Positions 56,176 to 63,648 of a DNA stretch of 64,000 bases are shown here, in pieces. The position numbers and the translations under genes were made by a program. The stretch covers positions 124,001 through 188,000 of the IMG/VR virus record IMGVR_UViG_3300037042_002125; one strand, given 5' to 3'. The first letter of the stretch is position 1, and each line of letters starts with the position of its first letter. The DNA is from a virus. Below the pieces are notes generated by a model. That model was not told where the DNA came from and searched no databases. It saw only the letters and a program-made list of their open reading frames with translations.

Positions 56176-56790
56176 ATGCTAATGCTGTTGCAAAAGACTT
56201 TCATGGATGACACAGGTACGCCATATGCGAATTACCCTGTTGTTATCACTGAGTGTGGTTCAAACAATCCTGTTCGCCTGTACACCCAATCAGGGTTGTT
56301 GATGGAACGTTTTGGAAATACAAAAACAGATTCAGACGGAATCATTTCTGTGTATGTGTCAGATGAAAAATTCTATGGCGCAAATCTTTTTAATCCCTCA
56401 AACGGGTTGAAGGTACAAAGTGTATACCGTCTTGACGTTGGTAATGGCGCTGACGTTCGCGTTGGCCCAACTGGCGCAGCCTCTACTGTTACTGGACCTA
56501 CAGGACCGTCTGTCACAGGACCGTCTGTCACAGGTCCCACTGGCGCAGCCTCTACTGTTACTGGACCTACAGGACCGTCTGTCACAGGACCGTCTGTCAC
56601 AGGTCCCACTGGTGCTGACTCAACTGTTCCTGGACCTACAGGTCCTCAAGGTGACTCGTTGACGGGACCCACTGGTGCTGACTCGTCAGTCACGGGACCT
56701 ACAGGTGCCGCAGGCAACGATGGGGCTACTGGCCCGACCGGTGCAGACGGTGTGGCTGGCCCAACAGGCCCAACAGGCGCAGCACCCTGA
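56176..56790 (+). CDS. Small collagen-like fibre/tip protein
   Basis: A 204-residue protein. Residues 1-95 are a beta-rich head ([21 protein letters not shown], then [12 protein letters not shown]). From about 96 to the end is a Gly-X-Y array ([25 protein letters not shown]) of the same type as in the long fibre. It contains two copies of a 69-bp direct repeat. It has no S74 domain. It may attach to the fibre at 53411 or form a separate short fibre. No trimerisation domain is obvious. Confidence 0.75.
56471..56608 (+). repeat. 69-bp direct repeat in the small collagen-like gene
   Basis: CTGGCGCAGCCTCTACTGTT starts at 56471 and again at 56540. The unit is 69 bp, 23 codons, two full copies, with a partial third at 56609. 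It encodes [17 protein letters not shown] and related triplets. Confidence 0.9.
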
Positions 56791-59980: not shown

Positions 59981-60015
59981 AAAGGGGCTGTAGACTAAAA
60001 ATCTACAGCCCCTTT
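59981..60015. terminator. Bidirectional rho-independent terminator
   Basis: A perfect 14-bp stem AAAGGGGCTGTAGA (59981-59994) / TCTACAGCCCCTTT (60002-60015) with loop CTAAAAA. Runs of A and T flank both sides. It separates the plus-strand topoisomerase operon from the converging minus-strand operon. Confidence 0.9.
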
Positions 60016-60032: not shown

Positions 60033-60140
60033 TTATGTGACAGCATCTCCAGACAATTTGTTCTCCCACTTGACTATCCTGTACGACAAATATATGGGAA
60101 GCCATACAAGGAGAGCCATGTAAATGTATTCACTCATCAT
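60033..60140 (-). CDS. 35-residue membrane microprotein
   Basis: Encoded on the minus strand from ATG (complement of 60138-60140) to TAA (complement of 60033-60035). The start overlaps the stop of the gene before it as ATGA. One helix (YIYMALLVWLPIYLSYRIV) and a short polar tail. Last gene of the minus-strand operon before the terminator. Function unknown. Confidence 0.5.
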   Translation of the reverse strand: MMSEYIYMALLVWLPIYLSYRIVKWENKLSGDAVT

Positions 60141-60286
60141 TTCTTTTTCTCATAGAACTGGCGATTCCACATGTCGTAAGCATATCCTGCTATACGTGCC
60201 AACACGTACAGAACAATCAAGACACATACAACGATTATTAGACCGTTATCAAGCATCTCGATGATTCTGGTGAAAGTAGTTCCCAT
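60137..60286 (-). CDS. 49-residue membrane microprotein
   Basis: Minus-strand gene starting one base after the stop of the Acb2/Tad1-like gene. GAGGAGGCC upstream is a strong ribosome site. One transmembrane helix (about 15-34: GLIIVVCVLIVLYVLARIAG) and a basic, Lys-rich C-terminus (YEKKK). It is coupled to the 35-residue gene after it. Function unknown. Confidence 0.55.
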   Translation of the reverse strand: MGTTFTRIIEMLDNGLIIVVCVLIVLYVLARIAGYAYDMWNRQFYEKKK

Positions 60287-60287
60287 G

Positions 60288-60650
60288 TCAGGCCTCCTCT
60301 TTACCCTCTACCCCACGCACCATACGCCGTGCAGTCCTTACTTCGAGGTTCACCAACGCTTCTTCCATGTGTTGGATGGCTCGCTGGTTCTCATCGCAGC
60401 CAAATTTAGCATCCAAAAACTTTGTGCGGTGAATCAAGATCGCCAGCAAAGCCTCGTTGGTTAAGCCATTTACTCCAGATTTTGGAACTGGGCCGTATTG
60501 AAACTTGATCAGACATGAATCTTCGCCTAAAGCAACTTCGTAATAGTGTCCAGTTACGTTCGAAATAATCCCACTAGGGAAGAAGGTTCGTCCTGCAATG
60601 GCTGTTACGGTCACCCCATTGTGGTCTTTGTAAATTTGTGGATCTGGCAT
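60288..60650 (-). CDS. Acb2/Tad1-hairpin-type protein, candidate anti-CBASS/anti-Thoeris sponge
   Basis: A 120-residue protein. The ATG at 60650 (with AGGAGAACC upstream) is chosen over 60731, which overlaps folE. The N-terminal 50 residues are beta-rich. The C-terminal part reads GPVPKSGVNGLTNEALLAIL, then C-D-E-N-x-x-A-I and MEEALVNLEVRTARRM, ending RGVEG. This matches the helical hairpin of the phage family I know as the Acb2/Tad1 hairpin domain, whose characterised members bind cyclic dinucleotides or TIR-made cyclic ADP-ribose and thereby block CBASS or Thoeris defence. The beta part plus hairpin and total length fit Tad1-like members. Binding activity here is inferred. It is encoded in the same operon as the 7-deazaguanine genes. 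Confidence 0.6.
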   Translation of the reverse strand: MPDPQIYKDHNGVTVTAIAGRTFFPSGIISNVTGHYYEVALGEDSCLIKFQYGPVPKSGVNGLTNEALLAILIHRTKFLDAKFGCDENQRAIQHMEEALVNLEVRTARRMVRGVEGKEEA

Positions 60651-60663
60651 GGTGTAGGTTCTC

Positions 60664-61356
60664 CTATTTCTTTCCCATTGATACAAGTGATAAAAATTCA
60701 GCTTTAGCAGTGGTAGTCTTGAACACACCACTCAACTTGGATGTAACCGTATCTGAGCAGGCATCTTCTACCCCACGAGTACGGACGCACATATGTTCTG
60801 CCTCTATCAAGACCGCAACGTGTTCTGTTCCAAGAACAAACTTTAGTGTCTCACATATTTGGCTAGCAAGACGCTCTTGTATCTGCGGACGCCTGCAGAA
60901 AAACTCAACGATACGGTTGATCTTACTCAGGCCCAACACCTTGTCTTTGGCTATGTACGCCACGTGGGCGCAACCAATTATAGGAAGAATGTGATGTTCG
61001 CACGTGGAGTTGACAGTGATATTGCGTTCGAGAACCATCTCGTCTACTTGCATCTTGTTCTCGACAACAGTAGCCTTTGGGAAATTGTCGTAATCTAATC
61101 CCCAGAAGATTTCGTTGAGATACATCTTGGCAACACGCTTGGGAGTATCAGCCAAAGAGTCATCAGACAGATCCATACCTAAAGCCTGCAAGATACCAGT
61201 TACGTGATCTTGGATTGCCTGTAGCTGAACAGATTTTGTAACCTCTGCATTATTGCTCGGAAGCCTTGTCATTGGCGTTTCGATGCCTAGGCTTTTCAAG
61301 TGAGCCTCGACTCTGCCACCCAGGAATACATCTGCTTTTGCGTCGTCAGTTTTCAT
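60664..61356 (-). CDS. folE: GTP cyclohydrolase I
   Basis: A 230-residue protein. [20 protein letters not shown] contains the zinc-binding Cys/His and catalytic His, then [24 protein letters not shown] is the family signature. A second conserved block near the end has [21 protein letters not shown], with the second zinc Cys. It turns GTP into dihydroneopterin triphosphate, the first step of both folate and 7-deazaguanine synthesis. With QueD and QueE in the same operon, the queuosine-type route is the likely purpose. The N-terminal 25 residues are an extra. Confidence 0.95.
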
Positions 61357-61373: not shown

Positions 61374-62294
61374 TTAGGCCATTGAGGCGTATAGATGCAT
61401 TTGGAGACACAGCCGGTAGCCCATATGCAAGGCGTAGTTGGCAGCGTACTCATGGTTTATTTGGTTCTCTTTCTGGTTGAGCAACCCTGGTGTCCAGAAA
61501 CTAATCACTTCGTCTACAGTAGAACGCTCATGCAGGCTAGGTGTGTATGTACCGTCTGCACCCTTCTTTGTAAGCCGCAGGATTTTCGACTGTTGTGGCA
61601 CATCGTTGTAGATGTTCATTGGGGATATATAGATTTCCCTGCCAGTGCGAGCCTTCCATTCTTGAGCCCATTGAGGTACGTTCCAGTACGGGCTGTCAAA
61701 ATCTTGCTTGACAACGAATTTCAAACACTGAACAGAATCTAGAACCTTATCGTTTGGTTTGAGGTACTCAGTAGGTACACCATTCTTCTCGCCACACTTG
61801 GGACTACATACAAACGTAACAAAGTCTGGCACTCTCGTGTTGAGCAAACCATTGCTTTCGATTTGGACATGCTTGTATGCAAACTGTTGCCGCATCAAGA
61901 ACTCATACAAGTTATCTTGCAGCAAAGGCTCTCCACCAGTGACGACCAATATGCAGCCGTAAGGCCCAAGCTTTCTGTCAAACTTTGTTTCCTTATCAAA
62001 GCTCTTAGGCAATACCCAAAGAGGTGCAGGAGTCCCGCCTTCATTCCAGTGATCGCATATGGTAGCGTAGGCTTTCGCCTCTATTTGCTCGTAGGTAAGC
62101 CAGTCACCTTGGTCAAAGAACGTGTCGCAGAAGTGACAATTGAGATTGCACTTAGCAAGACGTATGAACAAGGCAGGCATTCCTGCATAAGGTCCCTCGC
62201 CTTGTATTGTGAAAAACATGCTCGTCACGTACAGGGAATTCGCGGGTGCGTCTTTGAAGAACTTCTTGCCAGTTATTTCGTTAGTTCCAAACAT
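61374..62294 (-). CDS. queE: 7-carboxy-7-deazaguanine synthase (radical SAM)
   Basis: A 306-residue protein. TIQGEGPYAG and C49-N-L-N-C53-H-F-C56-D-T form the QueE start and the radical-SAM [4Fe-4S] site (C-x3-C-x2-C). LVVTGGEPLLQ is the SAM-binding GGE motif. Later HVQIESNGLLNT and CSPKCGEKN follow the family. It converts carboxy-tetrahydropterin to 7-carboxy-7-deazaguanine. It is longer than bacterial QueE (about 220) owing to a C-terminal extension and an insert. Confidence 0.95.
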   Translation of the reverse strand: MFGTNEITGKKFFKDAPANSLYVTSMFFTIQGEGPYAGMPALFIRLAKCNLNCHFCDTFFDQGDWLTYEQIEAKAYATICDHWNEGGTPAPLWVLPKSFDKETKFDRKLGPYGCILVVTGGEPLLQDNLYEFLMRQQFAYKHVQIESNGLLNTRVPDFVTFVCSPKCGEKNGVPTEYLKPNDKVLDSVQCLKFVVKQDFDSPYWNVPQWAQEWKARTGREIYISPMNIYNDVPQQSKILRLTKKGADGTYTPSLHERSTVDEVISFWTPGLLNQKENQINHEYAANYALHMGYRLCLQMHLYASMA

Positions 62295-62302
62295 GGTTCA
62301 TC

Positions 62303-63103
62303 CTATACAGCATCTTTGCTTGTCTCATATCGACCCTCAAATGCCTTGAGAGAGTTTGCAAGGGCGATCTCGTAGTTGTCACTTAGCCACTGTTTGATCG
62401 TTGCCAGATCAGGCGGCGTGGTTTGTTTGTCCAACCAGGCAGTAAGGAAGTAGTTGTCTTGGTTAGCCCCATCCCACAGCTTGAGATACCGATCTACGGC
62501 ATAGTACCCATACTTGAACGTACCTGCCTTGTACCCTTTGTCTTGGCGGAATTGATTCAGCAAAGCCTTTGCCATGTAGCGGGTGTAGAGGTTACGCAAG
62601 TCAAAGTCAATTGATCTTGAAAGGCTGAACAACAAAGACCAAGGGTTAAGGCCAAGCAACCCGTGTGCTTCCACGTACTCACTTGCGCTGTTCAAATTCA
62701 GGCTAGCCATTAGCATCTTTGCCAAAGACAAAGTCTTAACTTTATCCACAGACAAATCTGCAGACATTTGAAGGCTTCGGTAGATGCTCTCAATTGCTTC
62801 ATCGGCGTCTTGGCTATCAATCACTGATTGGCTGAGCATGAAGTGAACTGCGTCTACTATCTCCATTTTGCAGTTACCTAGGTCTTGCTTATCTCCTGAC
62901 CACCACTCGTAGCCGTAGCTGTTAACGAACTCACCGATCTCTTGAGAGGCTGCTAGGCTGTAATCAAACTCCTGGGTGCGGCCTTTGTTAAGCCAATCCT
63001 CGTTGTAGGCTTTGGTGTTCAAAGCAATCTGGTTAAATACCATTTCACGTATCATCGAATACGCTGGTGAGGTTTTGAAATCTTCGCCGAAGAGGTTAAC
63101 CAT
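62303..63103 (-). CDS. dUTPase-like, all-alpha dimeric (MazG-type)
   Basis: A 266-residue protein. EIGEFVNSYGYEWWSGDKQD followed by KMEIVDAVHFMLSQS is the E-x-x-E...W...K-x-E-x-x-D metal/pyrophosphatase pattern of dimeric dUTPases. The remainder is helical, with VDRYLKLWDGANQDNY towards the end. It should hydrolyse dUTP to dUMP and keep uracil out of DNA. A relaxed substrate such as a modified dNTP is possible in this modified-base operon, but that is speculation. Confidence 0.75.
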   Translation of the reverse strand: MVNLFGEDFKTSPAYSMIREMVFNQIALNTKAYNEDWLNKGRTQEFDYSLAASQEIGEFVNSYGYEWWSGDKQDLGNCKMEIVDAVHFMLSQSVIDSQDADEAIESIYRSLQMSADLSVDKVKTLSLAKMLMASLNLNSASEYVEAHGLLGLNPWSLLFSLSRSIDFDLRNLYTRYMAKALLNQFRQDKGYKAGTFKYGYYAVDRYLKLWDGANQDNYFLTAWLDKQTTPPDLATIKQWLSDNYEIALANSLKAFEGRYETSKDAV

Positions 63104-63105
63104 GG

Positions 63106-63648
63106 TCAGTCCTTGTTGGTGTTTGAGATAAATGAGCTACGGCTCTTTGGAGTCTCCCACCAATCGACACGAGAGCAGGTAACCCCCAAAGCCTTCATCT
63201 TTATTGAGACTAAAGTGTGCATCCACTTTGCAAAATTCTCGCTCGTTGGTACAAAGTCTACAACTAGCATACCACCATACAGCTCTTGCAATAAAGGGGA
63301 CATTGAATCGTTTTCAACAGTCCATGCTACCTCCACTCCTTCCAGCTCTACTGGTTGTAATCTAGATGTTTCTGGGAATAGAATTAACCTTAGTGGATCA
63401 TTTCTGTCAATGACAAACTTGTGATCAATAAAAGTATTTAGCCACTTCTTAAGCCACTCCAAGTGCCTAAAATCTGTAACCATACCTCGCACCAACGTGT
63501 CTGAGCTTAAAAAGACTTGAACTTTTGCTTCATGGCCGTGCAGATGCCTACAGGCGCATTTCAAGTCTTCTGAAAATCTACCGTCTAATTCTTGACTCCA
63601 AACTCTATGGCCATAACAGAACTCAAAAGTCTTATCAATGTTGAACAT
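63106..63648 (-). CDS. queD: 6-carboxy-5,6,7,8-tetrahydropterin synthase
   Basis: A 180-residue protein. FEFCYGHRVW (H14 as zinc ligand) and C33-R-H-L-H37-G-H39 are the QueD/PTPS active-site motifs, with C33 as catalytic Cys and H37/H39 as zinc ligands. MVTDFRHLEWLKKWL and FIDHKFVI are the other family blocks. It makes carboxy-tetrahydropterin from dihydroneopterin triphosphate. First gene of the operon, with a TGTAAATA box 28 bases upstream. Confidence 0.92.
   Translation of the reverse strand: MFNIDKTFEFCYGHRVWSQELDGRFSEDLKCACRHLHGHEAKVQVFLSSDTLVRGMVTDFRHLEWLKKWLNTFIDHKFVIDRNDPLRLILFPETSRLQPVELEGVEVAWTVENDSMSPLLQELYGGMLVVDFVPTSENFAKWMHTLVSIKMKALGVTCSRVDWWETPKSRSSFISNTNKD

Follow-up and report, generated by a model that had tools for sequence, protein, structure and literature searches.

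Does a small ORF that lies beside deazaguanine genes in a virus encode a sponge for immune signals of the host, and do the sponge and these genes belong to one system? The window is a stretch of 64,000 bases, positions 124001-188000 in a virus record that is 222,078 bases long. A sequence-only reading had placed the ORF (Table 1) in the Acb2/Tad1 hairpin family, and the C-terminal motif string that it quoted is present in the translation.

Homology to Tad1 and predicted fold

When the 120-aa protein alone was compared with the PDB, it matched CmTad1 (1.6e-11), phiKZ gp184 (3.2e-9) and CbTad1 chains (about 0.005). PHROG 2428 matched it at 6.8e-31, and tblastn with it found 130 phage records at E <= 0.01. 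These matches indicate that the ORF is not a chance one. A relative with 64% identity to it (L002) aligned with SBSphiJ7 Tad1 at 42% (2e-14) over 96% of the L002 length, beta part included; SBSphiJ7 Tad1 is the founding anti-Thoeris protein according to the available text of PMC12043709. The ATG of the ORF is preceded by AGGAGA, and a 74% identical relative on a 192-kb contig (L006) begins close to this form. A longer form, starting from GTG at 60731, would have 147 aa and would run into folE. A family profile search found a single copy in the whole record. No phage was matched by megablast of window positions 40001-64000.

The AlphaFold model of the single chain, built from a 77-row alignment, had a pLDDT of 89.7 and a pTM of 0.79. 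Its six strands are followed by helices 65-82 and 86-112, the arrangement of Tad1, which has an N-terminal antiparallel beta-sheet and two long C-terminal helices. All 19 PDB structures matched by this model at E <= 0.001 were Tad1. In VIA, CmTad1 scored Z 11.8 (rmsd 2.5, 112 residues) and CbTad1 Z 11.7 (rmsd 2.4, 110 residues), with the first unrelated chain at Z 7.5. A control model built from 13 close relatives only had a pLDDT of 74.5 and showed Tad1 likeness in the hairpin only. Foldseek gave nothing at E <= 0.001 for the control and no Tad1 among the 50 matches listed. The first seven VIA entries for it were Tad1, over residues 63-119 only, at Z 7.6-8.7, a range where common helix arrangements can score; the next was at 6.6. 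These control results suggest that the hairpin holds without the distant relatives; for the fold of the beta part, support comes from the wide alignment and from that of L002 with SBSphiJ7 Tad1.

By sequence similarity and predicted fold, the window protein is confirmed as a Tad1-type homologue on a divergent branch of the Tad1 family. The earlier choice of Tad1 over Acb2, made from the N-terminal beta part, agrees with the predicted fold.

The sequence-only reading had named searches of both the PDB and Pfam as a check of its assignment. The PDB supplied the Tad1 match, but the Pfam hairpin model PF24729 (Acb2_Tad1_hairpin) did not match the window protein at E <= 1. The same model found nothing at E <= 10 in the whole record and matched 0 of 13 aligned members of the window's subfamily at E <= 1, and NCBIfam placed no sponge family in the protein. 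The model does recognise SBSphiJ7 Tad1 (34.2 bits, cut-off 27) and, at E <= 0.01, 62 of the 77 sequences in the wide alignment. The Tad1-type label is therefore taken from direct similarity to solved Tad1 proteins, as this branch lies outside the reach of the Pfam model. Also unmatched by PF24729 was phiKZ gp184 (L098:19470-20162), the jumbo-phage Tad1 that is reported to be injected. Sponges of both kinds thus escape routine annotation, and relatives of gp184 may be widely unannotated. The finding marks a branch of the Tad1 family that is invisible to the standard Pfam model.

We consider it likely (about 0.8) that the product of the gene is a nucleotide sponge of the Tad1 type, which captures second messengers of host immunity. 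This reading draws on homology, the predicted fold and the conserved candidate ligand residues described below. A variant of it, in which the protein still binds signals, would have the virion carry the sponge and inject it, as happens with gp184, so that it acts on entry. Its relative gp184 is validated as injected in the available part of PMC10449902, and several phage relatives of the window protein are annotated as structural proteins. However, the window protein lacks the long N-terminal extension of gp184 (230 aa against 120 aa), and its gene sits among nucleotide-metabolism genes, not head genes. Injection is therefore improbable here.

The deazaguanine neighbourhood

The sponge gene, by our preferred reading, is the fifth of six closely spaced minus-strand genes (Table 1). 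The order is queD, dUTPase, queE, folE, sponge and 49-aa ORF; the gaps between them measure 2, 8, 17, 13 and 1 bp. Pfam and PHROG matches bear out the earlier naming of FolE, QueE and QueD as operon neighbours. For the 49-aa ORF, AGGAGG lies within the end of the sponge gene; this ORF had no Pfam or PHROG match and no homologue across 89 loci. The terminator-like hairpin after the run has the longest stem of the five terminator-like sites in the region; shuffled sequences gave 3.8 +/- 2.2 such sites.

Table 1. Features of the sponge gene run, in window coordinates
Feature	Position	Strand	Remarks
Terminator-like hairpin	59981..60015	-	16 pairs and a T tail; after the gene run
49-aa ORF	60137..60286	-	One hydrophobic stretch (by eye); 1 bp after the sponge gene
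Tad1-type sponge gene (probable)	60288..60650	-	120 aa; ATG at 60650
folE, GTP cyclohydrolase I	60664..61356	-	4.6e-62; 13 bp upstream of the sponge gene
queE-like radical SAM gene	61374..62294	-	PHROG 2076, 9.5e-46; below NCBIfam equivalog cut-offs
dUTPase_2/MazG-like nucleotide hydrolase gene	62303..63103	-	2e-17
queD-like gene	63106..63648	-	Pfam PTPS 8.3e-24; PHROG 2389, 6.5e-34; below NCBIfam equivalog cut-off

The dUTPase_2/MazG-like gene sits between queE and queD, and in phage Motura a dUTP hydrolase gene is also near deazaguanine genes. Elsewhere in the window, a 204-aa ORF at 56176-56790 (+) is rich in collagen-like GPTG repeats (by eye).

A DpdA-like homologue lies at 110541-111842 of the record. 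It aligned with the 'tRNA guanine transglycosylase' of Motura at 23% over 83% (3e-24) and was without a Pfam TGT match; Pfam TGT found nothing in the record. A search of the record for AAA gave nothing of use. A glycosyltransferase-like gene precedes the DpdA-like gene (L097:389-2808), and this pair recurs in L006.

The portal protein of the record had 91 matches; the 12 of these that were listed showed 35-43% identity and included those of Motura, PaBG, BcepSauron and Vibrio GR11A, and a baseplate wedge match points to a contractile tail. The L006 contig, whose portal is 42% identical to that of the record, carries homologues of DpdA (56%), folE (63%), queE (34%) and the sponge (74%) within 6 kb, with a weak queD match nearby. 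Among the 89 loci searched, some with short flanks, L006 was the only one with folE, queE and DpdA matched beside the sponge; none of the three was found in the fetched flanks of the other 88. Motura, PaBG, BcepSauron and GR11A had no match to the sponge. Further relatives of the sponge come from a beta-proteobacterium bin (63%), from Polaromonas P2-4 (61%) and from Acinetobacter lwoffii (50%). It appears that the sponge gene moves from phage to phage and that the deazaguanine neighbourhood belongs to this phage group.

The sequence-only reading had proposed a combined counter-defence island. The deazaguanine setting is real, but an island as a general system was rejected because folE, queE and DpdA were matched beside the sponge in only 1 of 89 loci, some of them with short flanks; this confines the 'island' to one phage group. 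Deazaguanines in phage DNA protect it from restriction enzymes, as stated in the available text of PMC6884629. No report of a sponge adjoining deazaguanine genes was met in the available parts of the literature searched, where jumbo-phage Tad1 and predicted jumbo-phage deazaguanine are each mentioned separately.

The same counts bear on a role of the protein within the pterin/deazaguanine pathway, in which it would regulate or serve the pathway by binding one of its nucleotides rather than an immune signal. The nearness of folE (13 bp) and the recurrence of folE and queE near the sponge in L006 would fit such a role. However, among the 89 loci searched, some with short flanks, the linkage was matched at that one locus only, and Motura, a relative in culture, carries queC, TGT, queE and folE without a sponge match, so that we regard a pathway role as very improbable.

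Conserved residues and the pair at positions 86 and 101

The 77-row alignment has invariant G62, N88, R105, R109 and G116. For a wider count, 166 loci were searched and 162 matched; 103 distinct stretches were left once the record's own loci, five duplicates and the stretches of phiKZ and T4 had been removed. G62, N88, R105 and R109 were retained in all 103. Some of the patterns used to retrieve loci contain N88, so the invariance of N88 is partly due to selection; no pattern includes R105 or R109, which are free of this bias. In the printed chains, N88, R105 and R109 of the window protein align with N92, R109 and R113 of CbTad1, which we take to be its ligand-contacting residues.

The pair R90/W105 of CbTad1 corresponds to D86/N101 in the window protein, and F82 of CbTad1 aligns with L79. 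Arg and Trp are found at the two positions in SBSphiJ7, CmTad1 and CbTad1. Other residues are found in phiKZ gp184 (E/A), FLC9 gp131 (P/A), Thanatos-2 (T/A), ABMM1 (E/E) and Acinetobacter phages (E/E). As gp184 is without it, the Arg/Trp pair does not strictly define Tad1. Of 51 rows, 33 had R or K together with W and 18 had neither; of the 103 stretches, 68 had R, K or Q at 86 with W at 101, and 35 had another residue at 86 with a non-W residue at 101. Gp131 of Burkholderia phage FLC9 (L094:2266-3279) is a fusion: residues 3-162 form a prolyl isomerase domain of the cyclophilin type (Pfam 2.5e-44), and the C-terminal part is a Tad1-like hairpin region that matches the window protein at 49%.

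Covariation of the two positions was weakened when each changed only twice on a tree built without these columns. Two changes each mean that positions 86 and 101 mark branches and not many independent events. The covariation is further weakened by retrieval patterns that include the residue at 86. T4 Acb2 had been removed before this tree and a second one were built. On the second tree the window sponge adjoins L006, and the 13 rows with CDEN do not form one side of a branch (2 changes); a single clade for them was not rejected (p-AU 0.11), with few columns and many forks unresolved.

Loss of R90 and W105 might point to a sponge that has decayed and lost binding in its pocket. Decay is highly improbable, as conservation within the close subfamily is tight (43 columns do not vary among its 13 rows) and N88, R105 and R109 are retained. 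In addition, gp184 likewise lacks Arg and Trp, and the available text of PMC13282480 reports phiKZ Tad1 as working.

It is conceivable, though we think it unlikely, that the acidic branch without Trp (D86/N101, E/E of the Acinetobacter phages, E/A of gp184) has a re-tuned pocket. Such a pocket might capture a signal poorly bound by canonical Arg/Trp Tad1, or might leave decoys unbound, for instance the nucleotides of Panoptes. If this were true, a set of sponges with its own specificity would be unannotated, as Pfam misses all 13 members of the subfamily. Swapping residues at the two linked positions would test ligand choice directly.

Proposed function and comparison with known systems

As a Tad1-type sponge, the protein would be made together with the folE-queE-queD genes and, by analogy with known Tad1, would probably assemble as a hexamer made up of three dimers. 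It would bind, without cleaving, gcADPR of Thoeris and/or cyclic di- or trinucleotides of CBASS, the presumed ligands. With these signals captured, host effectors would stay off; both the anti-defence effect and its timing are presumed.

The neighbourhood resembles phage 7-deazaguanine DNA modification (DpdA pathway) in FolE, QueE, QueD and, more tentatively, the DpdA-like homologue. It differs in that Pfam QueC found nothing in the possibly fragmentary record, and the sponge is outside the pathway as described in the available part of PMC6884629.

Acb2 (T4 Vs.4) has a two-helix hairpin broadly like that of the window protein. However, the N-terminal helix of Acb2 is short and a beta part is absent, according to the accessible text of PMC12043709, whereas the window model has six strands before the hairpin. 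T4 Acb2 also aligns poorly with the window protein and is without the R-G-V-E-G tail.

The known Tad1 proteins (CmTad1 8kbb; CbTad1 7uaw and 8kbf; SBSphiJ7) resemble the window protein in full-length predicted fold, in hairpin sequence and in the equivalents of N92, R109 and R113. The window protein differs from CbTad1 in the residues at 86, 101 and 79 described above and in a helix turn that is shorter by one residue, and from SBSphiJ7 Tad1 in not being found by PF24729.

Gp184 of phiKZ (8y6v) shares with the window protein the hairpin similarity, the non-Arg/non-Trp pair, the lack of a PF24729 match and its occurrence in a jumbo phage. We infer that gp184 and phiKZ Tad1 are one protein, in keeping with the words 'encoded by orf184' in the available text of PMC12043709. 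According to the available part of a 2026 review (PMC13282480), injected phiKZ Tad1 blocks CBASS and Thoeris, and it is the only described jumbo-phage anti-defence protein named there. In contrast to gp184, which is 230 aa long, has a long extension at its N-terminus and is packaged and injected, the window protein is free-standing at 120 aa, and our finding would add a sponge of this free-standing Tad1 type to jumbo phages.
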